A stretch of 22,758 nt of DNA. It comes from a virus. Position numbers and translations under genes: made by a program. The stretch lies in IMG/VR virus record IMGVR_UViG_3300009024_000074, positions 1 through 22,758 of that record. One strand, given 5' to 3'. The notes beneath the pieces were generated by a model. It was not told where the DNA came from. It saw only the letters and a list, made by a program, of their open reading frames with translations, and ran no database searches. Positions 4,519-22,758 of this stretch are shown here, piece after piece; within the stretch, counting starts at the first letter, position 1, and each line of letters starts with the position of its first letter.

Positions 4519-7500
4519 TTAATCTCTCACTAATGTTATTTCAGTATTGCAGTCAACGCCCCCGCCTGTAACCGGGTCGAACAACTTAAACTCGAAGTAA
4601 CCTGTTGTGGGGTTTCTATAGCTGACCACAGGATACGCATATGTATTGCGGGATACCTGTATACTGATTGTAAAGTCAGCGCCCCAGCCGGGAACTTCAA
4701 TATAGTAGATGCCTAGACCGTACCGGGCGTAGCCGAATCCGACTAGCTGCCCAGTAGTTCCCACTAGGGATGTTCCTGTGCTGTTCAACCTGCAAGTGAT
4801 AACATCCGTCGCCAATCTTCTGTTCACACCATTCAGTTTCAGCGTGGCATAGTTTTGATTGTTAGGGATATGCACAGAACCTGCGGGAGAACTAGCATAA
4901 GGGGTATCACTTGATACGTCCGGTACTATCTGTAGAGAGGTTCCTGTAGCGGCTACGTTTTCCGCCTTCAAGCCTATCCCTGCTACACCAGTACTATACC
5001 CATATGCGCCAATCTTGGCAGATACGCCTTTTACACCTACCTCAGAGGAAAAGCCGCCTACACCAGCCCCCGGCCCATTTCCATATACTCCAACCTTTCC
5101 AACAGTTAGAGCCACCCCCCATATTCCATCGTCTAATCCTGATTGCGAAATAATACCTTGCCTAGCTGTGGATGTGAATCTTGCACCAATTTCAGCACCT
5201 GTTACCGATATACCATCGCCAGTAGCACTTTGGAAGACGCCAGCGTAACCATTAAGGCTGTAAGCCGAAATAGCATGCTTATTGTAAGATCTAGCGCGTA
5301 TCCCAACAGCGGCATTTGCAGCAGAAGTATTTCCAAAGTCTCCGACCACATAGTCAGTCCCGTCAAGCTTATAACCAATCTCCGCGTACACAGTTGTGGC
5401 ATCTGTGTAGAATCGAAGATGGTCAGTAGTTGATGACATCTCCATACGCTTATTGGGAGATACGTCAGTTTGGATAGTTCTACCTGTTACAGTACCTGCA
5501 GTGATTTTATCAGCACTTATATCCGCTGCTAGCAGTGCATTAGTAACGTTTAAAAGCTCTATCTGAGCGGTCTTTATTTTTGCCGACCCCAGTACAGAAT
5601 CCCACTTTACTTGGTCAAAAGACCCAGAAAGTTGGGCTACTGTTGAACCGAGGGTAGCCCCTGCATGCGCTGGCCCATTTAGTAAATTCAGGGCGTTTAT
5701 AGCCGCAGAGCTGACGCTTCCTCCAGACAAAGTACCGTTAGAGTTCAATACAAGGTTAGCATTAGTAACCTGAGCCTCAGTTAAGTCAGACTTAGCAAGT
5801 GGACCCTCTCCCTTAAGGTTAGCCGCGTCCAACAACGCATCAGAATAGTCTGGGTTTGCCGCCGGTCTCAATGGGTAGTCCGTTAGGCTATCGGATATGT
5901 GTATACCCCAACCACTTTCCCATTGAGCTATAGTGGTGGGTCCACCGTTCCAAGAAACATGAAGGTCACGCACGCTGGCACTTGGGTGCGTCCAGCTGGA
6001 CGCGGTTCCGTCCGCTGTTACGCTACCAATAACAATTACGGCCTTATTGGTAACATTGTTGTACATAAACCTAACGCGGTTATCAGAGGCTAGATTACCG
6101 ACGATATCAGCGGTTGTGTTTACCCAGTAACCACCGGCACCGCTGCCGGGGTAAGTATACCCACTTACGTTTAAGGTGAATGACTTACTACCGCCATAGT
6201 TGTAAACATCGATGGCAAAACGCACCATGTTGGCAGACCAACCCACCGGCAAGGTGACAATAATAGCCCCCGTAATAGGGTTGCCACTCATGCTCATTAC
6301 CGCACCAACAGGTTGCTTAACTCGGATAACTTTCATACCTGTTACGGCATCTAGGTCGATACTGCTATTGGTGTTAGTCAGTCTGTTAACCGCCAAGGTC
6401 ATTTTTTCGTAGAACGCTTGCGTATACACTGCCAATAGATCACCGGTAATAGCAGTAGCGATCCCAGCGTCTATATTCTGAGTGGTAAACAGGTAAGTGC
6501 TTAAATTGTTCCTAGCAGTAGTGAAGTCTGTGAACGCTGTCTCTGCTTGAATACCGTAAGTGGTTGCCTGTGCGATAATATTGAAGTAATTAGCCTGCAT
6601 CCCTTCCCATTGCAGACGATAAGTAGCTTTTTCAGCACTAGAGAAGATGAGATCACTGCTCATTCCATCTACAGCGGTTTTTGCGTTTGCTGCATTATCG
6701 CGCACTGTTGCGGCAGCAATGCCGCCGACTGCGGCGGTATCTGCGGAGGTGTTACTGCCAGTCACATCCGCCCCTGCCTGCGCTGGGCCGTTTAATAGGT
6801 TCAGCGCGTTTATTGTCCCTCCGCCAGCACCAGTTAACGACCCTGAAGTTGTTAAAGACACGTTAGCGTTGGTAACCGCAGACTCAGGTAGGGACGAGTT
6901 GGCCAAAGCTCCTGTGTTAACTGTTGCCCCTGCTGCCGGTATACCGGCTCCTCCATTTGCCGCTATATTAGCCCAAGTTGCATTTATGTTTAAAACAGAA
7001 GAATCAGATAATAAATTACCAGCGCTATCAAATAAGTTTGACCCCAAGAACTGCGAGGCGGTAGAGGTAATGTCGATCTGGTCATAGGACGCTATGTCCC
7101 AGACATACCCAGTGGTTGGTCCAGACAAGGATTTGTGGCCTGTACTGTTCCACGGCGTAGTAGTCCCAACTGTGCGTATACCTGCGTATAGTGCCCAGTC
7201 CCCCGTACCCGCTGTGGAGGTTAGCCACGTATGGGTTCCCCCACCTGTAGCGTTAGACTGCTCTCGAATATTATATCCCACAGGAAACTTACACCACATC
7301 CTAAACAGTAGTTTAGTATTGGCCGCATACCTCCCGGGTATACTCGGCAGGCCAGCAGTAGTTTCCCCGGGGCCATTAAGTAGTTGCGCAAAACCACCTA
7401 ATCCGGGTGAAGTGCCAGTACCCGATGCACGAGTAACCCTAAGTATTTTACCGCTGCCATTTGGTGCAAGGTCATCAGCAACCTCAGAGAGGGTTATTAG

Positions 7501-10500
7501 TCCTGTAGAAGCGTTGTCATACACAGAGTAACCTGAAATCCCGTTACGAAATTCAGGGTTCTTAGATAATTGAGCCCCCGGGATAGTCAACAGCTGGTCT
7601 TCTACCGACATAGTAGACCCGCCAAAGTAAGCGCCTGTTAACAAGTAACCAGCGGAAGTCAGTGCTGCAGGGATACGGCCGTCCGTCAATTCTGCCGGGC
7701 GATTGTTGACGTCGGTTCCCCATGTGGCCCCTTGTGTAGCCCCTAAGCTGTAACCGCTGACCGGTGAGGTAAAGGTATTGGTTCCATCGTCAGTAGTCGC
7801 AGCCGCTGTCAGGGCATAGAAAGTGGTCTCTACCTGCCACACCTTACCGCTTCCAGACGTCGGAGGAGAGAGCCCCCAACCTGCCGGAGGAGTCATTACC
7901 TTTGTGGAAAAGTTGTACGTGCCAGAGCCGGTAGTCAGAGCCGTGGGGGTAGCCGCTTGAGGAGTCTGGTAATAGAAAATAGCAGACTTCAGTAATTTTG
8001 TTACGTCAGCCCCCAAACTGTAGCCGCTAAAGGGGGCAGTAAAGGTATTGGTTCCATCGTCAGTAGTGGCCGCCGCTGTCAGGGCGTGGAAAGTGGTAAC
8101 CACCGCCCAGACTTTACCTGCCCCTGAAGTTGGGGCAACCAGACCCCATCCTGCTGGGGGAGTAACCGCCTTTGTGGAAAAGTTGTACGTGCCATCCCCG
8201 GCAATAAGATCTGGGGTAGGTGTGGCGTCTTGTGCCGTCTGGTAGTAGAAGGTAAACGTGTGAGACAGCTTGGTAACGTCAGCCGCGTCCTGTGGCTTTA
8301 GACCGTCGTCAATCAGAGCTGACCATGTGGTTGGCTTATTTTCGTACCCGGTAACCTCTTTTATTTCGTCCGCCTGATATTGTTGATACCCTGCCTCTGA
8401 CACGTCGATCCACTTAATCAGTAAATGTGCTCCTCCGTACCACCCAGTCCACTGAGAGGTCACGTCGTTGAACGCCTCTAATGCGAGAGAAGCGGGTACA
8501 GGAGGTGGGTACGTGTCGGACTTAAACTCGTCGTAAGGCACAATATAGTCGGCAGAAGCCTGAGGAGTGTCGCCTCTCTGCAGAACAAAATTGCTGGTGG
8601 CAGGAGCGCTGGAGATGCTGCCGTCGATCAGTATTATACAGCCTCCGGGAGATCCTCCTATTCCGGGGGTAGCGTGAAAGGTTGTGGTGTACCCGGGGGA
8701 GCTAAAAGCCTCAGAAGTCCCTGCCGTCCCTGCGGTCCCCGAGAGGTTTATCTTATCACCCACTCCGAAAGATATACCTCGGCAAACAATAGCAAGTCCT
8801 GCACCCCCGGTCCCGCCGTCCCCCCCTTTACCAAGTAATCTCTCTAGTTCGCTGTTATAGTACCCCATCAGCAGCGCCGACCCTGATGCCCCTCCCACCC
8901 CTGTGAGATTATGCTGTAACAACCCTTCGATAGAAGTCCCGTTGTTATTCACAAACGTAAGGTCGCTTACGGACTTAATCCCTTTTGGCTGGTCTGCCGC
9001 AACATACTTCCCAAACAGCCTACTACCGCCCCACACTTTTATTCTAAAAGAGTCTAACCTAGAGTATCTTGTCCAAGCGTTTCCCCCGGACCATCCAATG
9101 CCTCCAGATAATCCACCTGTCGGAGGCTGTGGGCCAAAGGTTTCCCATAAAGGGTATATCACCGAGTCTTGGTAGTCAGACCCGTTGTATGCCGGTGCCA
9201 CTCCTCCGGGCATACCGCCACCAACGCCGTTGATCTCCCCGTTAATGGTCAGTCCGCCTTTGATCTTAAGGGTCACATTACCGGTAATGGTAATGGTGGC
9301 CGCGTCCCCTATGGTGAGGTCTCCGTCGTAGTAATATACAGAGTCTCCAAGGGTGGGGCCGCCGTTGAGAGTGCCGTTAGCAGTGACTGTGTTAGTGCCC
9401 CCGTCTATGGTGAGCACGGACGCCAGATCGATCTCTCCGTTGGAAGTGTCTGTGTAATAGCTATCTTCCATCACCAAGGTAGTAGTCAACGGAGAGTGAG
9501 AGGCTTGGTCTACCCCGCCGAAGAGGTCAAGAGCCCCCTTACCGGTTACCCAGTCAGTGGTAATACCCTGAATCTCAAACACCCGGTCTAAGGTTCCCCC
9601 TACATTGTTATCTTGAAGATACGGGATGGTGACCCTGACCAACTCCCCGACCTCAAGTTTGTCCCATTCAGGCAATACTTCAATCTTCAGTTTAAGGGGA
9701 GGGGCGGAGTACCGATCCCTCAGCTGGTCAAAATACGACCTCACTATTTGGTCTGAATGCAGGCCTGTGAAGACCCCTTTAAACTCAAAGTCTTTACGGG
9801 TGGCGTACCCGTACCTAGAGATACTAACAGTGTCGATTAGCTGATCTTCTTTTGTGTACCGTTCAAGTGGTTCCACCCAGTTCCACTTTAAGGCGATGTT
9901 ATTGATAACCGCTGTCTGGTCATAGGTTAATTCCCCGTAGCTGATTATCTGGCTAGTAGTCAGGTGGGCAGAGTACCCCAGCCCGTACGGCAGCACTGAG
10001 CCAAACCTCTGTAGCCCGTAAGACCCGTCGGCATGCACAGGCATGAAACAGGCCATCCACAGCAAAAGTTCTTTCTCTATAAAAGATTTTCCGGCGATGT
10101 CTTTGATGCCGTGGAATCTTACATACCTACCTTTGTGTGTGTCTGTGTCCCATAGGTCGTATCCAATGTTTTCGAATGCCTGCCTGTCTACATACTCCGG
10201 GGATATCCCTAGGTGCCAGTGAGACGGCAGAAATCCCCCACCGAAATGATTTCCTTTCATTAATACCGGGTTAAACACCTCTATTGTAGATACAGACGCA
10301 GGAGAGGAAAGAGCCGGGTACAGATAAACGTGGACCCCCGCGTCAGTACCCAAGGTGCTGTGCCCGGTTATCGACAGTACCCAGTACCCGGAAATCAGTT
10401 TAGCTGACCACTTATCTACAACCATTCCTGCGCTAGCCGCCGAGGAAGATACCCCTGTGCTCATGGTTAGCCTAACTTCTGCATAGGTGTTATTGGTCAG

Positions 10501-11631
10501 GTAAAGGCGAATCGACAATAGTTTAGAATTGGCTTTATCGTCTCTGATAACCACTTGGGCTGTGTACACGTCACCGGGGGTGTGCCCATCGCTAAACAAA
10601 GGGGACCGGACGGCGTCCCAAGAGTCAGTGCTAGCATCTTCAAGTCTCCACATTCCGTTCAGGTTAACCGGGTTTAGCGTGTCTGTTTTAGTGACAACAA
10701 CGTCACCAAGTGCAGTGAACGAGTCCACGTCACCGATCAGGTTAGGGCTGTCAGCCACCAACCCGGTCAACATCGAATAGATACATTGCGGTGCCGGCAG
10801 GGAGAGCACAACGTACTCCTCTACTTTTTTATTCTGGGCAGAAGAGGTGGTCCCTGTAGGGTTTTCATGCGCCACAGCCAGAGTCCCAAAGACCCCTCTT
10901 CCGATCACCGTCCCGCCTCCGTCAGTCAACAGGGTTAACTCTGTATAGCTGTTATCGGACCACCCGGTATGGGCCATTATTTCATCGTCGATCTGGATGT
11001 AACCAACGAATTGCTCTGGGTGGTCTTCATGCGTCAAATGGTGCGCAACCACGGGGAACTTCTTTTCCCCGTTCGCCACGGTAACCGCTATGGTCGCCGG
11101 GCCGGTTTCGGTGGCCGCTATATTTGTCGTTAGAACAGCCTGATGAACATTGAATATCTTTTCTTTGGTACTGCGCTGTATGTCAGAGGTCTGCAGCGTG
11201 TACACCCTGTCTTTGCTGGTGATGTTGTCGACCAAATACGTCAACCGTTTAGAGTAGTCTGCCCAATCTGTCAGAGACTCGTGCCCTTTATACAGAACCA
11301 CTCTCTTTCTGCGTATACCCTCCCCCGCATCTCGCTTAGTTTTTATTTTGGCAGACAACTCCCCGTTAACATCCAACAGCTCAAACGACAGGCTTCCTAT
11401 GGTGTGCTGGGCCGTGTCGGGGCTGATACGCTGGCTCTGCCCGCTGATGGACATGATACAGCCGTCTATGCGGTCTATCGCCGCAACCCCCGGAGGAACC
11501 TGACAGTCGTTGTGGCTGGTCAGGTAGGTCACATCGGTATGGTCATCAGAAAACGACAGGGCTATGACATATCGCGGGAACAGGATGTCTTTAGAGGATG
11601 CCTCAGCATAATTAGCTGTTTCTGTTTTCAT
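4519..11631 (-). CDS. Giant tail-tip hub / central tail fibre protein, host recognition
   Basis: This 2370-residue protein occupies the place of lambda J or T5 pb3/pb4. Residues 1-705 look like a tail hub, ending in LKLKIEVLPEWDKLEVGELV and VFEIQGITTDW. Within them, about 325-455 has jelly-roll-like character (WRLEDASTDSWD, YTAQVVIRDD). A Gly-rich beta region covers about 755-1000, then a possible FN3-like segment near 1043-1095. A tandem duplication spans 1117-1298, and another probable jelly roll about 1350-1540. A helical SSAEKATYRLQWEGMQANYF region covers 1660-1755. The stretch ISADKITAGTVTGRTIQT (about 2040) is typical of J-type fibres. The C-terminus (2100-2225) carries repeated G-V-G motifs. 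It should form the tail tip and contact the receptor. The start at 11631 overlaps the previous stop (TAATG). Confidence 0.82.
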   Translation of the reverse strand: MKTETANYAEASSKDILFPRYVIALSFSDDHTDVTYLTSHNDCQVPPGVAAIDRIDGCIMSISGQSQRISPDTAQHTIGSLSFELLDVNGELSAKIKTKRDAGEGIRRKRVVLYKGHESLTDWADYSKRLTYLVDNITSKDRVYTLQTSDIQRSTKEKIFNVHQAVLTTNIAATETGPATIAVTVANGEKKFPVVAHHLTHEDHPEQFVGYIQIDDEIMAHTGWSDNSYTELTLLTDGGGTVIGRGVFGTLAVAHENPTGTTSSAQNKKVEEYVVLSLPAPQCIYSMLTGLVADSPNLIGDVDSFTALGDVVVTKTDTLNPVNLNGMWRLEDASTDSWDAVRSPLFSDGHTPGDVYTAQVVIRDDKANSKLLSIRLYLTNNTYAEVRLTMSTGVSSSAASAGMVVDKWSAKLISGYWVLSITGHSTLGTDAGVHVYLYPALSSPASVSTIEVFNPVLMKGNHFGGGFLPSHWHLGISPEYVDRQAFENIGYDLWDTDTHKGRYVRFHGIKDIAGKSFIEKELLLWMACFMPVHADGSYGLQRFGSVLPYGLGYSAHLTTSQIISYGELTYDQTAVINNIALKWNWVEPLERYTKEDQLIDTVSISRYGYATRKDFEFKGVFTGLHSDQIVRSYFDQLRDRYSAPPLKLKIEVLPEWDKLEVGELVRVTIPYLQDNNVGGTLDRVFEIQGITTDWVTGKGALDLFGGVDQASHSPLTTTLVMEDSYYTDTSNGEIDLASVLTIDGGTNTVTANGTLNGGPTLGDSVYYYDGDLTIGDAATITITGNVTLKIKGGLTINGEINGVGGGMPGGVAPAYNGSDYQDSVIYPLWETFGPQPPTGGLSGGIGWSGGNAWTRYSRLDSFRIKVWGGSRLFGKYVAADQPKGIKSVSDLTFVNNNGTSIEGLLQHNLTGVGGASGSALLMGYYNSELERLLGKGGDGGTGGAGLAIVCRGISFGVGDKINLSGTAGTAGTSEAFSSPGYTTTFHATPGIGGSPGGCIILIDGSISSAPATSNFVLQRGDTPQASADYIVPYDEFKSDTYPPPVPASLALEAFNDVTSQWTGWYGGAHLLIKWIDVSEAGYQQYQADEIKEVTGYENKPTTWSALIDDGLKPQDAADVTKLSHTFTFYYQTAQDATPTPDLIAGDGTYNFSTKAVTPPAGWGLVAPTSGAGKVWAVVTTFHALTAAATTDDGTNTFTAPFSGYSLGADVTKLLKSAIFYYQTPQAATPTALTTGSGTYNFSTKVMTPPAGWGLSPPTSGSGKVWQVETTFYALTAAATTDDGTNTFTSPVSGYSLGATQGATWGTDVNNRPAELTDGRIPAALTSAGYLLTGAYFGGSTMSVEDQLLTIPGAQLSKNPEFRNGISGYSVYDNASTGLITLSEVADDLAPNGSGKILRVTRASGTGTSPGLGGFAQLLNGPGETTAGLPSIPGRYAANTKLLFRMWCKFPVGYNIREQSNATGGGTHTWLTSTAGTGDWALYAGIRTVGTTTPWNSTGHKSLSGPTTGYVWDIASYDQIDITSTASQFLGSNLFDSAGNLLSDSSVLNINATWANIAANGGAGIPAAGATVNTGALANSSLPESAVTNANVSLTTSGSLTGAGGGTINALNLLNGPAQAGADVTGSNTSADTAAVGGIAAATVRDNAANAKTAVDGMSSDLIFSSAEKATYRLQWEGMQANYFNIIAQATTYGIQAETAFTDFTTARNNLSTYLFTTQNIDAGIATAITGDLLAVYTQAFYEKMTLAVNRLTNTNSSIDLDAVTGMKVIRVKQPVGAVMSMSGNPITGAIIVTLPVGWSANMVRFAIDVYNYGGSKSFTLNVSGYTYPGSGAGGYWVNTTADIVGNLASDNRVRFMYNNVTNKAVIVIGSVTADGTASSWTHPSASVRDLHVSWNGGPTTIAQWESGWGIHISDSLTDYPLRPAANPDYSDALLDAANLKGEGPLAKSDLTEAQVTNANLVLNSNGTLSGGSVSSAAINALNLLNGPAHAGATLGSTVAQLSGSFDQVKWDSVLGSAKIKTAQIELLNVTNALLAADISADKITAGTVTGRTIQTDVSPNKRMEMSSTTDHLRFYTDATTVYAEIGYKLDGTDYVVGDFGNTSAANAAVGIRARSYNKHAISAYSLNGYAGVFQSATGDGISVTGAEIGARFTSTARQGIISQSGLDDGIWGVALTVGKVGVYGNGPGAGVGGFSSEVGVKGVSAKIGAYGYSTGVAGIGLKAENVAATGTSLQIVPDVSSDTPYASSPAGSVHIPNNQNYATLKLNGVNRRLATDVITCRLNSTGTSLVGTTGQLVGFGYARYGLGIYYIEVPGWGADFTISIQVSRNTYAYPVVSYRNPTTGYFEFKLFDPVTGGGVDCNTEITLVRD
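5647..5784 (-). repeat. Second copy of an internal ~45-residue module (residues ~1950-1995)
   Basis: Residues LTEAQVTNANLVLNSNG and AINALNLLNGPAHAGAT repeat, in the same order, the module at residues 1581-1624 of the same protein. Conservation is stronger in the protein than in the DNA, so the duplication is old or under protein-level selection. Confidence 0.7.
6760..6891 (-). repeat. First copy of an internal ~44-residue module (residues ~1581-1624)
   Basis: Residues LPESAVTNANVSLTTSG and TINALNLLNGPAQAGADVT match the copy at 5647-5784. The two copies lie on either side of the helical SSAEKA region and the beta domain that follows, about 370 residues apart. Confidence 0.7.
7738..8283 (-). 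repeat. Two tandem 90-91-residue repeats inside the tail-tip gene
   Basis: Unit 1 (8283-8011, residues 1117-1207) and unit 2 (8010-7738, residues 1208-1298) share ADVTKL, FYYQT, GTYNFSTK, TPPAGWGL, PTSG-GKVW, and the long identical stretch ALTAAATTDDGTNTF before SGYSLGA. Nucleotide identity is high in blocks 270 bases apart: AAAGGTATTGGTTCCATCGT begins at 7771 and again at 8041, and TTTGTGGAAAAGTTGTACGT at 7901 and 8171. There is one single-codon difference in spacing. Confidence 0.9.
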
Positions 11632-12023: not shown

Positions 12024-15000
12024 TTAAAATATTCGTATCTCATCATTTGACTGCGCCAGTTCAAGGGTCTCTACCAGAGTCCTACGGAAGTCCTCATTAG
12101 CGTACATATTGCCCTCAATGTAAATAGTCACCCCTCTCCCTCCTTGATCTACCGGGGCAGCCGGAGCCGGGGCGGCTAAGCTAGCCCCTCCCCCTCCGGC
12201 TGAGCTAAAGGACCCTGAACCCCCTCCAGAGAACTCTTGGGCACGTATAGCCTTCACCGCAGCGAAGCCGTTAAGGGCCACCAGAGCCGCCATGGCTGGC
12301 CCTAGGATCGGTCCGTAGCCCCAAGCCTCTGCGATACCCTTCTGGGTAGAGATGATTGCTTGGGCAATCGCCAGACCCTTCTGGAGTTTAAATACCTTTT
12401 TACTTTGCTTGGCGCCGATGTCCAGCATGGCTATTCCGCTGGACAACATTCCTGCCTTGTCCTTCTTTCTGGCGGCCTCCCCAAAGTCAAAAACCTTTTG
12501 GTGGTGTCCTCCCCACAAGGCGTCTTGTTTCTTGGAGTTGGCTATGGCGAGTTGAAGTTTAGCATCTTGAAACTGTTGTTCTACAGCCAGCATGTCTTCA
12601 TTAGACCAAATTGCCAGAGCCTTTTCTTTTTCGTGCAAAACTCCTAAAAGCTCCAGCTGTTTGGCGTGATCTTCTGCCAGTGCGTCGGCCCCTGTCCTGC
12701 CTTCATCCCTGAGACCTTCAGTGAAGGATAAACCCTCTTTGACTGTTGGTTTGGCAGCCACCGTACTAAGCCTGCCGCCCTCAAAAGAGTACCCCTGAGC
12801 CAGCTGAAGATTACGCTGCAGCTCTACCCCTTTGGCCTTGAGTCCTTGGGTCTCCTTTTCGTGCGTCTCTGTCAGCTTGATTAAGGCTTCATTGGCACCT
12901 TCATATTCCTTCTGCCTACGGTCTAATGTGTCTGGGCCCACCCCTGAGCTAAGCTGCAGAGTATCCCTGAGATCTTTGGCTTTATCACGAGCCCTCTCAA
13001 GTTCTTTACGCTGTAGGTTATACGACTCATTCAAACTGTCCTGAGTTTTCTTTACCCGGCCTATGGAGGCTTCAATAGACTCAAACTCGCTTATATCCCC
13101 TATCTGCTCTGAAAAGTTTATGTTAGACAAACTATCTGACAGCTCTCTCTGAGCCCTAGCTATCTCAAGTTTGTACCCTTTTAACGCCTCTTTTGGGTCC
13201 TCGGACGCATCTACTTTACCTTTCTCTTGCAGAGATTTTCTATGAGCCTCGAAGGCCTGCTTAGATGCCAAGGAGGCAGCAGCCTCATCCTCTAACGCCT
13301 CTTTAGACCCTGCGTAAATGCCTAGAGATTTCATCTTTTCTACGTTAAGAGAACGCCTTGCCGACAGCTCATCTGCTAAGGCGGCATTAAGGGATTTAAC
13401 CTTCGCCTCTTGTTCCGGGGACAACAGTTTAACCGCGGGTTGCTCGATGCCTGCGGCCTTCTGGTTTTTAAATATGTTACGCTCGACAGCTGACCCTCCA
13501 CCTGCAGACATCTTACGTTTGGTGTCTGCTCCAAATCCTTCTATAGCCTGTATCTGACGTTTGATTTGGGCTATCTTCCCTTCCAGAGCGGTCTCCCTAG
13601 GGGCAAATGCCATGTTCACTTGCTTCTGCAGCTCTAGAGTGGCTTCTTCAGCCGATGTCTTAAGTTCTCTCTGAGACTCTGAAACGTCGTCTATAGACTG
13701 CTTGAAGTAGAAAAACGCTGCTGCTGCCGCCGCCGCCGCCGCTATTAAAGGGTGGGCAGAGATAGCCAACAAAGCCCCTCGGGCCAGAACCATAGCCTTA
13801 GCCCACACCCCGGTGGCCGCAGTAAGCCGTACAGTGGACGCAGTAAGGGCGTTCTTCGCTACCGTTAATGCTCCTACAGTCAAAACCTCTTTAGCTAAAG
13901 CTGAAGTAGCCAGAGCCGTTAAAGAGGTGATAAGGATAACCGACGCTATCAGGACCCCCGTAGCCTGCCCCAGAGCTATAAGCTCCACCCTGCTGTCCTG
14001 CAGAGAGTCCACCCAACTTTTTGCTTTTTTAACCAGATCTACCAAAGCTGGGCCAAACTCTGCAAACAGAATATGCTGCAGCTCCTCTACCGCTGATTTA
14101 AAGATTTGAAACTGATTGATCAGGTTCTGCTCTAACTGCTTCCTGAGCATCAAACTTGTCCCAGCTACGCTTTTCTGTGCGTCCTCGAACTTAACCATCT
14201 TGCGGTTGGCTTCAGCAATAACCTGAGTCCACGCGGCTACAGCTCTGGCGCCGAACAGAATTGATATCTGGGCGGGCTTTATCCCTTTCTCTGCCAACTG
14301 CTTAGAGATCCCCAACATAGAGCGCATTTCACCGCTGCCATCTCTGGTGCTTATGTTAAGGGCGTCTATTACGTCCTGCTGCTTTTTAGTTGGGTTAAGA
14401 AGGTTGACCATGCCACGTCTCAAGGCGGTCCCGGCTTTAGTCGCCTTTATGCCGGCATCGTGCATAAGTTCTAATATAATAACCGTGTCTTTAAAGCTGG
14501 TATTTGTGGCAGCGGCAAGTGGGCCAACATAGCTCAAAGACTGGGCCAACTGCTTTATGTCCATCATAGAGTCAGTCACTGCTACCGCCATACGGTCAAC
14601 AACCTCTTGCAACGAGGTGGCCTCCATCCCAAAAGCATTCAATATGTTGGCCGCTGTTCTGGCCGCTGTGGCCATATCGGTCATGCCGATGGCGGCCAAA
14701 GAGGCTGTTGCGCTCAAGGCTGAGGCAGAGTCTTCTGCGGTAAAGCCAGCCATGGCGAATTCTACCGCCCCCGCCGCAACCTCGTTAGCCGTAAATATAG
14801 TGCCTTTAGCCACGTCCCTGACAGCGAAGGCCATGGCCTTCATCTTATCTGTTACGTCCCCAGTCCTCTCCCCCAGTATCCCCGTAACTGCATAAACCCT
14901 TTGCATGGACTGAGACAACAGAGCCCCTGCGCTGACGGTGGCCCCTATAGCCTTTACAAAGGCGTAGGTTGCTGCGGCAGCTACCAGAGTGTGTGCTGTA

Positions 15001-15728
15001 AACAGTCCCATGCTCTGGCCGGAGGCCAGCAAACCTGCTCTAAACATGGCGGCTGCTTGGGTGGCATCCACCAAAGACTCCGCGTTCGCTACTGATGCCC
15101 CTCTGGCTTTCTTGTCAGCGGCGGCTTTATCTTTAGAGGCTTTGGCAGCCTTTTTTACTTCGTCCGCCTCTTTCTTAGAGGCTTCTTTTACCTTGTCAGA
15201 GGCCCGCGCTTTAGAAGCCGCCGCAGTAGTAGCTTTTTGATAGTTAGCGGCTAAGGTCGTCAGTTGGTGAGACAGCCCAGCCATAGTAGCAGTAAGCGCC
15301 TGCATCTCAGAGGATGTCCCTACATTCATCTTAATGGGGGTTTTGGCAAGCGCTATAGTCTGGGTTATTTTTGTCGATAAGGCAGTGACTGCAGCCATGG
15401 CAGCTGTGCTATCAACCTTCATTTTTGCAGACGAGCTGGCTGACTTGGTTGAGCCAGATAGGGTTTCAAGGGTTCTCATCCGGTTAATAGCGGTCAGCAC
15501 TTGGGCTGAGTTTACCTTGATCTGGATAGACGCCCTGACGGCGGCTTTAAATGTTTTAACTGAGGCGAGAGCTGAGTCAACACTGGCCTTTAGAGCATCT
15601 ACCGACTTAGTGGCAGCCTTCACCTCCATCTTAGTATTGGCTGACTTAGCCAGCCTGTTCATAGAGGTTGTTAGTTTCTGAACCTCTTTATTGGCATTAT
15701 CCGTTGTGATTTTTATGTCATAAGCCAT
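12024..15728 (-). CDS. Tail tape measure protein
   Basis: This 1234-residue protein carries the phage tape measure core at about residues 270-545 (TIFTANEVAAGAVEFAMAGF, ATAARTAANILNAFGM, VVDRMAVAVTDSMMDIKQLA, KATKAGTALRRGMVNL, SILFGARAVAAW), the TIGR01760-like type. An alanine/lysine-rich coiled-coil N-terminus (about 1-210) precedes it. Hydrophobic stretches lie at about 585-612 and 658-676, the latter with eight or more alanines. Long coiled coils fill about 685-1060. A Gly/Ala/Pro-rich tail near 1175-1205 ends in a conserved C-terminal ETLELAQSNDEIRIF. It sets tail length, scaffolds the tube, and probably enters the envelope at DNA delivery. The start lies 17 bases after a hairpin; its Shine-Dalgarno is weak. 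Confidence 0.92.
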   Translation of the reverse strand: MAYDIKITTDNANKEVQKLTTSMNRLAKSANTKMEVKAATKSVDALKASVDSALASVKTFKAAVRASIQIKVNSAQVLTAINRMRTLETLSGSTKSASSSAKMKVDSTAAMAAVTALSTKITQTIALAKTPIKMNVGTSSEMQALTATMAGLSHQLTTLAANYQKATTAAASKARASDKVKEASKKEADEVKKAAKASKDKAAADKKARGASVANAESLVDATQAAAMFRAGLLASGQSMGLFTAHTLVAAAATYAFVKAIGATVSAGALLSQSMQRVYAVTGILGERTGDVTDKMKAMAFAVRDVAKGTIFTANEVAAGAVEFAMAGFTAEDSASALSATASLAAIGMTDMATAARTAANILNAFGMEATSLQEVVDRMAVAVTDSMMDIKQLAQSLSYVGPLAAATNTSFKDTVIILELMHDAGIKATKAGTALRRGMVNLLNPTKKQQDVIDALNISTRDGSGEMRSMLGISKQLAEKGIKPAQISILFGARAVAAWTQVIAEANRKMVKFEDAQKSVAGTSLMLRKQLEQNLINQFQIFKSAVEELQHILFAEFGPALVDLVKKAKSWVDSLQDSRVELIALGQATGVLIASVILITSLTALATSALAKEVLTVGALTVAKNALTASTVRLTAATGVWAKAMVLARGALLAISAHPLIAAAAAAAAAFFYFKQSIDDVSESQRELKTSAEEATLELQKQVNMAFAPRETALEGKIAQIKRQIQAIEGFGADTKRKMSAGGGSAVERNIFKNQKAAGIEQPAVKLLSPEQEAKVKSLNAALADELSARRSLNVEKMKSLGIYAGSKEALEDEAAASLASKQAFEAHRKSLQEKGKVDASEDPKEALKGYKLEIARAQRELSDSLSNINFSEQIGDISEFESIEASIGRVKKTQDSLNESYNLQRKELERARDKAKDLRDTLQLSSGVGPDTLDRRQKEYEGANEALIKLTETHEKETQGLKAKGVELQRNLQLAQGYSFEGGRLSTVAAKPTVKEGLSFTEGLRDEGRTGADALAEDHAKQLELLGVLHEKEKALAIWSNEDMLAVEQQFQDAKLQLAIANSKKQDALWGGHHQKVFDFGEAARKKDKAGMLSSGIAMLDIGAKQSKKVFKLQKGLAIAQAIISTQKGIAEAWGYGPILGPAMAALVALNGFAAVKAIRAQEFSGGGSGSFSSAGGGGASLAAPAPAAPVDQGGRGVTIYIEGNMYANEDFRRTLVETLELAQSNDEIRIF

Positions 15729-15804: not shown

Positions 15805-16143
15805 TCATTTGCGGGGTTTCAGCTTAGCGGTTCTGGCCCGCTCCTCCAGAGCAGAGTTTATAAAGGCTGAATCGCAGGCCGATATCATAGCCCAGTAACG
15901 AAGCCTTTCTTCTCCGTCAAACTCTTGTATGCAGTCGCAATATTGCATTACGTCTGAGAAAGTGATCGGGTTTATGACGTGGTCTGAATTTTGCCGACCT
16001 CCGGATAAGGTGTTAAATGCCTCGTTATATATCTGGTTGCAGATCTCCAGAGTTGGCCTAGAGGCTAAGGCCGGGGGCATTACCCCTGTTCTCTCGTAGT
16101 GAGCGTGAAGGGTATTGAGGGCCTTTTCAGACCCCCAAAGCAT
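15805..16143 (-). CDS. Tail assembly chaperone, frameshift extension (GT-type C-terminal domain)
   Basis: The open frame from the first ATG gives 112 residues, but it is most likely expressed as an extension of the upstream chaperone by -1 frameshifting. After slippage at 16158-16164, reading continues VVEWG and then MLWGSEKALNT without a stop, giving a fusion of about 255 residues (138 + 117). The part visible here is helical, with a Cys-rich centre (SDVMQYCDCIQEFDGEERLRYWAMISACD) and a basic end (RTAKLKPRK). In lambda the equivalent GT product bridges tape measure and tube protein during tail assembly. It lies directly upstream of the tape measure gene, the canonical location. Independent translation from ATG 16143 cannot be excluded. 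Confidence 0.75.
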   Translation of the reverse strand: MLWGSEKALNTLHAHYERTGVMPPALASRPTLEICNQIYNEAFNTLSGGRQNSDHVINPITFSDVMQYCDCIQEFDGEERLRYWAMISACDSAFINSALEERARTAKLKPRK

Positions 16144-16154
16144 GCCCCACTCGA

Positions 16155-16571
16155 CTACTTTTTTAGATTATCAGCATCTTCTGCCTGTCTTTCTGACAGG
16201 TAGTTGTCACGGTTTTCAGCGTACGCTTCGATATCCGCCCGCAGTTCGTCGTGGTCTTCCAAAACCTTCATGGCTACCCCGGGGGAGTATTTAATCTCTT
16301 TGCCGCCGTCGACAACTCCCTTCCATCCCAGCAACAGGTAAACAGCAGTAGCCTCCAGCATGATTTTTTCTGACACTTTATCAGCCTGTTCGGTATGGGA
16401 GAGGCTGGACACCAGACGCTCATTCTCCCGGTATTTTTTGGAGATGAACCCTTTGTACTTCTGGTTATTTTTGCGGGCCACAAGGAAGGAGACCCCGTCA
16501 CCGTATTCAAACCATGTACCTTGCTCTTCTAGATCACGGTTACGTTTATTCTTGGAAATGTCAAAAGCCAT
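16155..16571 (-). CDS. Tail assembly chaperone (G-type, N-terminal product)
   Basis: From ATG 16571 the protein has 138 residues: MAFDISKNKRNRDLEEQGTW, then a beta-rich EYGDGVSFLVARKNNQKYKGFISKKYR and helices to YLSERQAEDADNLKK. Gene position between tail tube and tape measure, and a slippery heptamer on its last two sense codons, identify it as the G product of a G/GT pair. An upstream in-frame start at 16631 would add 20 residues, but the ribosome binding site (AGGTG) and a promoter whose start point would fall near 16607 favour 16571. The protein is expected to coat the tape measure protein before tube polymerisation and is absent from the mature virion. Confidence 0.8.
   Translation of the reverse strand: MAFDISKNKRNRDLEEQGTWFEYGDGVSFLVARKNNQKYKGFISKKYRENERLVSSLSHTEQADKVSEKIMLEATAVYLLLGWKGVVDGGKEIKYSPGVAMKVLEDHDELRADIEAYAENRDNYLSERQAEDADNLKK
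16158..16164 (-). other. Programmed -1 ribosomal frameshift site A AAA AAG
   Basis: On the minus strand the last codons of the upstream frame are CTA AAA AAG followed by TAG. The heptamer A AAA AAG fits X XXY YYZ and is a highly efficient slippery sequence in bacteria (as in dnaX). A slip to -1 reads GTA GTC GAG TGG GGC ATG and enters the downstream frame. A possible stimulatory hairpin lies about 22 bases downstream: GGGTC and GGCCC around a six-base loop. Confidence 0.85.
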
Positions 16572-16677: not shown

Positions 16678-17859
16678 TTACGCAGCGATACGAGTCATGA
16701 TGATAGAAGCTGCTGTACCAGATCGGGTGTCTTTAACCCCGGAGAAAGTCACAGACGCCATAACGTCAGCATCGGCCCCAGAGGCGGTTACTTCGTGGGA
16801 GGCAATCTTCATTTCAGGCAGTACGATACCGTAGGTATTCCCTGCAGGGTCTGAGATTTTACACCGGATCTGAATAGAGCCATTGGCCAGAAACTGGTTA
16901 AAGAACGCCTGACTAGCAAAGTACAGAGAGGCTGTCGCTTCTACGTCGATCCGGCCAGACCCGATGCCCGCCGGGAATAAGCTGCCCACGGCTGTTTGGT
17001 CACGCAGGTTGTTATTCAGGTTAATGGATAACTCCTGAAACGTGCCAGACATAAGCGCCAAAACCCCAGCCGTGGTGACCGAATACATGGTCAAACCAGT
17101 AACGTCACTGACAGAGTTCATCAGCTCGTTAGTGGTCGTGGCTATATAGGTTCCAGCGTCCTGAGACGTAGTTCCTGTTCCCACTCCTGTGGCACCTTGT
17201 AGACCGATCTCTCCGGACAAGATGGAGCCTGAGGCCAAGCTCAGGGACATAGAGCCGGCCCGCATCCCAGACATATTGAAGTAATTGTTCACGCCGTCGA
17301 CCTGAAAGTTCTTCTCAAAGGTGTAAGACCGTTGAGTAGACCCGTTCTCGATGGTGCCAGAGTTGGTGATGGTGACAGAGGCCACCGCTTCGTCCGTCAG
17401 ATTTTCCGCTGTCTCAAAGTGAGTGGGATCTGAAATAGCGTGAACGGTATAGATGTCATCCTCAGTGGTAGCAGCCAGTCCTGACAGCTTAACCAGCTTA
17501 CCTACTTTTAGTCCGGCGGTGGAGGTAACAGTAACGACGTTGCTGGTAATGTTGGTCCCTGTGTCGCTGTATCCAGCCGACCAGTCGGCTGACTGCAGAA
17601 CGGCTTCAAAGAAGTCATCGTACTCTGCGTAGGACAGCTGAAAGTTGACAGACCCGGCAGATGTACCAGACACGTGAACCGATCCTGTATATTGGCGGCT
17701 AGAGTCAATCTCGTCAGAACGGGCGGATTCCAAACTGGTGTTCAGAGATTCGCCTGTATTCCGGAGTAACTTGTAGACCCCTGTTCCAGCAACTGGTTCG
17801 TCGAATGTTGACTCTTTTGCATAAGCCAACGTGTAAGTGGAAGTATCGGCAAAAGCCAT
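16678..17859 (-). CDS. Major tail tube protein
   Basis: A 393-residue protein at the standard tube position, after the tail terminator and before the chaperones. The opening MAFADTSTYTLAYAKESTFD matches the siphophage tube type in which a small 'Y--E-TFG-P' motif starts the protein. Next come SLESARSDEIDSSRQYTGSV, the SAGSVNFQLSYAEYDDFFEA strand/helix, a YTFEKNF segment and a C-terminal IRCKISDPAGNTYGIVLPEM then MASVTFSGVKD. These beta-sandwich elements are typical of proteins that stack as hexameric rings. Residues about 104-168 look like a separate beta module (VVTVTSTAGLKVGKLVKLSG ... DPTHFETAENL) inserted in the fold. It has a CGAGG ribosome binding site. Confidence 0.85.
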   Translation of the reverse strand: MAFADTSTYTLAYAKESTFDEPVAGTGVYKLLRNTGESLNTSLESARSDEIDSSRQYTGSVHVSGTSAGSVNFQLSYAEYDDFFEAVLQSADWSAGYSDTGTNITSNVVTVTSTAGLKVGKLVKLSGLAATTEDDIYTVHAISDPTHFETAENLTDEAVASVTITNSGTIENGSTQRSYTFEKNFQVDGVNNYFNMSGMRAGSMSLSLASGSILSGEIGLQGATGVGTGTTSQDAGTYIATTTNELMNSVSDVTGLTMYSVTTAGVLALMSGTFQELSINLNNNLRDQTAVGSLFPAGIGSGRIDVEATASLYFASQAFFNQFLANGSIQIRCKISDPAGNTYGIVLPEMKIASHEVTASGADADVMASVTFSGVKDTRSGTAASIIMTRIAA

Positions 17860-22253: not shown

Positions 22254-22758
22254 TTAAAGTTTGTTTGTCGCAATGGAAGCGCGTTCCATGAACGACAGGC
22301 CGTCACCGCTAGATGCTGGCAATTCCCCGTCCTCAACCTCAGCCGACGCTCCGATTTGGAATCGAGTCGTAAACTTTGATCTAACTTCGGTGTACTGAGC
22401 TAACAGTGTCGAAGTTTCCATGCCTGAGAGATTCATGGAAGACATGCCTAAACCGATGGCCATTCCCCCAATGTACTCACTGGCTAATTTTTTCAGAGCG
22501 CCCTCGTTCGTGTCCGCCAGCTGGAACTTGGCGCGAAGAGAGGTAAGCTCAGAGTCCATAGCTTTATTCTCTGCCCGCAGGGTGGCCAACTCGCCTTTAA
22601 GGTGAGCTATCAGACTGGTTGACTCGGAAGCGTCAGCTTTAGGGGCCGGAGCGCCGCCTTCAGCCTTAGGGTCTTCGCCTTCAGCCTTAGGGTCTTCGCC
22701 TTCGCCTTCAGCCTTAGGGTCTTCGCCTTCAGCCTTAGGGTCTTCGCCTTCAGCCTTA
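22254..22758 (-). CDS. Prohead protease/scaffold protein, C-terminal part (runs off the window)
   Basis: The frame is open from the window edge to the stop at 22254, giving about 167 visible residues; the start lies outside. It begins in a repeated AEGEDPK linker, then GGAPAPKADASESTSL, then a charged coiled coil (LKGELATLRAENKAMDSELT, SLRAKFQLADTNEGALKKLA) and a mixed end (GDGLSFMERASIATNKL). A flexible acidic linker followed by a helical scaffold-like tail, just upstream of decoration and capsid genes, is typical of ClpP- or S49-like prohead proteases fused to scaffold, or of a separate scaffold. The catalytic part is not in the window, so the protease half is inference. An internal TTG at 22589 is not a plausible start. 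Confidence 0.65.
   Translation of the reverse strand, partial: KAEGEDPKAEGEDPKAEGEGEDPKAEGEDPKAEGGAPAPKADASESTSLIAHLKGELATLRAENKAMDSELTSLRAKFQLADTNEGALKKLASEYIGGMAIGLGMSSMNLSGMETSTLLAQYTEVRSKFTTRFQIGASAEVEDGELPASSGDGLSFMERASIATNKL
22659..22758 (-). repeat. 21-base tandem repeat encoding AEGEDPK
   Basis: Four full copies of a 21-base unit (22659-22679, 22680-22700, 22707-22727, 22728-22748) plus a partial one reaching the window end are nearly identical in DNA, with one 6-base (Glu-Gly) insertion at 22701-22706. Near-identity at the nucleotide level points to recent expansion by slippage or recombination in a tolerant linker. Confidence 0.92.

Follow-up and report, generated by a model that had tools for sequence, protein, structure and literature searches.

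A lambda G/GT-type tail assembly chaperone pair with a probable programmed -1 frameshift at a stop-adjacent slippery heptamer in a metagenomic virus record

We report here that a minus-strand locus of the window, by which we mean the whole 22,758-base stretch analyzed, in all probability encodes a lambda G/GT-type pair of tail assembly chaperones in which a programmed -1 frameshift would yield a G-T fusion. From sequence comparison we put the probability of this reading at about 0.93. The original prediction of such a pair is supported by chaperone family matches, by gene order, by a -1 relation between the two frames at all 33 homologous junctions compared, and by the annotations of the phages AH03 and CcrRogue. 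We infer slippage, its rate, its function and the role of the adjoining stop codon from the anatomy of the locus, homology, conservation and a predicted fold. The arrangement has already been published in the homologous phage KL1, and the locus is an ordinary one. What is gained is annotation of a gene pair that is missed or truncated in several public records of relatives.

The minus-strand letters at the junction are GAT AAT CTA AAA AAG TAG TCG AGT GGG. Direct reading bears out the predicted heptamer A_AAA_AAG, in the frame of the G start codon (ATG at 16571), with TAG as the next codon (Table 1). The product sizes and coordinates first proposed are also right, with the -1 frame open to 15805 and a predicted fusion of 138 + 117 = 255 residues in which DNLKK is joined to VVEWG. 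The last -1-frame stop ahead of the heptamer is a TAA at 16170-16168, and a productive -1 shift is thus confined to the ~10 nt before the G stop. A_AAA_AAG is the sole heptamer inside this interval permitting a G-T fusion. Of 7010 in-frame positions in the minus-strand ORFs of the window, 23 (0.33%) carry the pattern X_XXY_YYZ, so that the chance of an in-frame heptamer over the 2-3 usable positions is roughly 1%, conservation not yet counted.

Table 1. Features of the chaperone locus and its flanking genes, in window coordinates.
Feature	Coordinates	Strand	Basis or remark
Tail tube protein gene, upstream of G	16678..17859	minus	PF18906 Phage_tube_2, phrog_290
G, short tail assembly chaperone ORF, 138 aa, ATG to TAG	16155..16571	minus	PHROG 313, phrog_8233
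Slippery heptamer A_AAA_AAG, in frame with G	16158..16164	minus	L016 and L023 have it too, identical and in the same position
0-frame TAG stop, directly 3' of heptamer	16155..16157	minus	Read from sequence
T, -1 frame extension after slippage, 117 aa, ends TGA	15805..16158	minus	PF23812 Phage_TAC_18, phrog_3817
ATG, only one near T-frame start; possible but unconserved independent start	16141..16143	minus	L023 GTA, L024 ATT, L030 ATA at aligned place
Predicted RNA fold: outer stem 16147-16142/16080-16075, 10-bp GAAA hairpin 16138-16115, second stem-loop 16114-16081	16075..16147	minus	z -3.07
Tape measure protein gene, 1234 aa, downstream of T	12024..15728	minus	PF10145 PhageMin_Tail, PHROG tape measure families

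Both frames are related to chaperone families. G matches the tail assembly chaperone family PHROG 313 (E 2.8e-24) and also phrog_8233, and T matches Pfam PF23812 Phage_TAC_18 above the curated cut-off (E 6.7e-12), as it does in all four clade members scanned, and the tail chaperonin family phrog_3817 (E 1.2e-12). The order tail tube, G, T, tape measure is the usual place of a lambda-type G/GT pair. Compared by sequence with solved structures, G and T gave no match beyond chance level; the predicted model of T is of moderate confidence (pLDDT 67.7) and that of G is poor (45.9). When genomes were scanned with the T alignment no relative emerged, and hence no prophage or host is named, and no tRNA gene was found in the window. 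Elsewhere in the window, a 2370-aa minus-strand ORF (4519-11631) follows the tape measure gene and has no PHROG or Pfam match. The interval 1589-2026 matches Pfam PF23140 Gp80, a podophage fibre protein, yet in PHROG its best match carries the label head protein. The contig ends in a tandem repeat of period 21/48 (22655-22758), possibly at an assembly break point.

The T frame overlaps G in -1, has no conserved start of its own, and evolves as coding sequence: between the window and L016, pS is 0.88 and pN 0.17 in this frame, and the relation is reversed in the other two. We considered whether G and T might be separate genes, with T started from the ATG at 16143 and perhaps coupled to termination of G. 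Counted from the first base of the G stop, this ATG is 14 nt away; it is preceded by GAG/GGGG, some Shine-Dalgarno pairing is available (-7.1 kcal/mol), albeit very near the ATG, and L016 also has an ATG there. However, a start codon is missing from this position in three of the four clade relatives (L023, L024 and L030), and the conserved W of the clade motif [VI][VI]xW, which those three keep, sits upstream of it. In six relatives (L023, KL1, KF3, Domovoi, CcrRogue and K478b) the first T-frame start comes only 89 to 251 nt beyond the G stop, past the conserved N-terminal residues of T, and separate genes would give no reason for an in-frame heptamer to persist at the stop. We therefore regard an independently started T as very unlikely. 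At the homologous junction the AH03 record annotates a joined CDS, and that of CcrRogue a 'programmed frameshift'. In the public records of L005, L007 and L012, T is missed or truncated: the region holds short ORFs or an ORF on the other strand, or is left unannotated.

In the frameshift reading, most ribosomes would translate G and terminate at TAG, whilst a minority would slip back one base on A_AAA_AAG, probably aided by the downstream RNA fold, and read on into T to make the 255-residue fusion. Many G and few G-T molecules would then coat the tape measure protein, as in lambda, with the T part recruiting tail tube subunits. Since the codon next to the heptamer is the stop, two timings of the slip can be envisaged: with AAA and AAG in the P and A sites, or later, with TAG already in the A site and release factor 1 competing with the slip.

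We compared the junction in the window with those of 32 relatives, comprising isolates and metagenomic contigs; these sequences share ancestry, and p-values for the junctions are accordingly approximate. The conservation that the original prediction called for is present: in 33 of 33 junctions the -1 frame continues open beyond the G stop for another 95-149 aa, and a canonical in-frame heptamer lies within the overlap in 28. In 17 of those 28 the heptamer touches the stop, as AAAAAAG (the window and L023), AAAAAAA (SHOU24), AAAAAAC (CcrRogue, L018, AH03, KP1, Halfdan, Birtae and BcepGomr) or GGGAAAC (R5C, Pan1, ctIqW946, RcTitan, KL1, Axy19 and KF3). It is one codon away in seven (L016, K478b, K120, 264E42, Domovoi, Mwe-JY26 and Xp15) and 12-39 nt away in four (PW916, L020, Bhz59 and Luminis).

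The two window-clade members L024 and L030 have GGGGGAA and GGGGGAG, respectively, as the last two G codons in place of AAAAAAG, which suggests that another slippery motif serves at this site. The imperfect A-site re-pairing of these motifs counts against the fusion reading. In both, the frames still overlap in -1 and no start aligns with the ATG of the window; the contrary pattern of a lost heptamer with independent frames was not seen. Within the 33 junctions, the heptamer is absent from Lana, UAntarctica and PMBT3, although T is still in the -1 frame; this absence also counts against the fusion reading. These three (L003:3390-3430, L004:3396-3436, L045:1423-1463) have in common GUA_AAG_AGU ahead of the stop and UCC_UGA_U at the stop itself, and a shift at UCC_UGA_U or at GUA_AAG might be considered for them; of all tetramers, A_AAG is the one most prone to shift in E. 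coli (PMC4066793).

The same comparison bears on two further accounts of the locus. RNA polymerase might slip on the A run, with length-variant transcripts encoding the fusion, and six consecutive A do precede the G base. Six A is short for transcriptional slippage, and many relatives have GGGAAAC or GGGAAAG at the same place, with no long homopolymer; these observations leave polymerase slippage highly improbable. A single gene split by a sequencing or assembly indel might be suspected in a metagenomic virus record such as this one from IMG/VR. Yet the junction recurs unchanged in a second assembly, L002, whose identity is 99.7% (26 mismatches in 8414 bases), and the same frame relation is found in independent contigs and isolates, reducing the chance of an artefact to something close to negligible.

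The heptamer is followed by a predicted RNA fold. The 80 nt past the stop have a predicted folding energy of -33.2 kcal/mol (z -3.07), with 1 of 200 shuffles as stable, and the outer stem begins 10 nt past the heptamer and 7 nt past the stop. The GGGTC/GGCCC pairing originally described as a small hairpin is present, but it is not small, forming part of the 10-bp GAAA-loop stem within this larger predicted structure. L016 keeps a related hairpin with a compensatory change, and consensus covariation across five clade members is limited. Over the whole comparison, stable folding (z below -2) is enriched at the junctions, in 16 of 33 windows as opposed to 5 of 131 control windows taken at these loci (Fisher 2e-9). 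Several relatives, L023, L030, SHOU24 and Lana among them, have a weak fold or none. The predicted fold is a likely candidate for a stimulator of slippage.

The contact between heptamer and stop, which had been picked out as a special feature of this DNA, is real, but it recurs in the family and has been published for KL1 (PMC3483164). Its recurrence across the family is the only part of our analysis that may be unreported, within the literature searched. We counted contacts in 26 junctions, these being the 28 with a canonical heptamer less two near copies of K478b. Contact was observed in 17, against 9 expected from synonymous choice given the amino acids of T and the heptamer, an excess with P of about 2e-4 if junctions are assumed to be independent. 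The contact junctions use all three stop codons and four heptamers.

How much should be read into this excess is a question about the role of the stop only, and does not compete with the frameshift reading. The frameshift may be real and the contact have no function of its own, the stop simply ending G where the codons of T largely dictate, and to this we give slightly less than an even chance. Given the residues that T has past the heptamer, a stop is likely at that point (about 9 of 26 by synonymous choice), and in the seven junctions with the stop one codon later, and the four with it 12-39 nt later, the two do not touch; a stop without function is harder to reconcile with the excess of contacts and with the diversity of stops and heptamers among them. 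We offer only as a speculation, and a rather unlikely one, that the stop has been selected to touch the heptamer in this chaperone superfamily, with release factor competition at an A-site stop setting the G:GT ratio. Were this true, tail assembly would be sensitive to the termination capacity of the host.

Published mean distances from heptamer to stop are 26 nt for actinobacteriophage chaperones and 36 nt for the Xu set (PRFect, PMC10885494). Placing a stop after the HIV-1 slippery site lowered frameshifting by bacterial ribosomes, and overexpression of release factor removed it (PMC4373837); frameshifting in SARS-CoV-2 is raised when a 0-frame stop is nearby (PMC8168617). By analogy, either effect, lowering or raising, could apply at the junction in the window. 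The recurring contacts provide a natural set of sites at which a possible tuning of phage -1 frameshifting by release factors can be examined.

Among the closest parallels to the locus is gp18/gp19 of Burkholderia phage KL1, of the same chaperone superfamily. There the slippery site lies directly on the stop codon (PMC3483164), and in our 33-junction sample its heptamer-to-stop distance is 0, as in the window. KL1 differs in using GGGAAAC with TGA, rather than AAAAAAG with TAG, and in having an extra gene between GT and the tape measure gene. An AAAAAAC frameshift site has been described for the chaperones preceding the tape measure gene in phiCbK relatives (PMC3556154). These Caulobacter phages (phiCbK/CcrRogue) have a homologous G with a programmed frameshift annotated at AAAAAAC, which in CcrRogue directly precedes the stop (TAA) as in the window, whereas the heptamer itself differs and the T extension is longer (149 aa past the stop in CcrRogue). 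The stop-adjacent heptamers of eukaryotic viruses and synthetic constructs share with the window a stop in the next codon but lie in unrelated proteins. The lambda heptamer is GGGAAAG and its stop does not directly follow, unlike that of the window. At an engineered stop-adjacent site, release factor overexpression suppressed the shift on bacterial ribosomes (PMC4373837). The lambda gpG/gpGT system works by a -1 shift that gives a short chaperone and a rare fusion (PMC5009743), and the window would share with it the gene position, the direction of the shift and both kinds of product.
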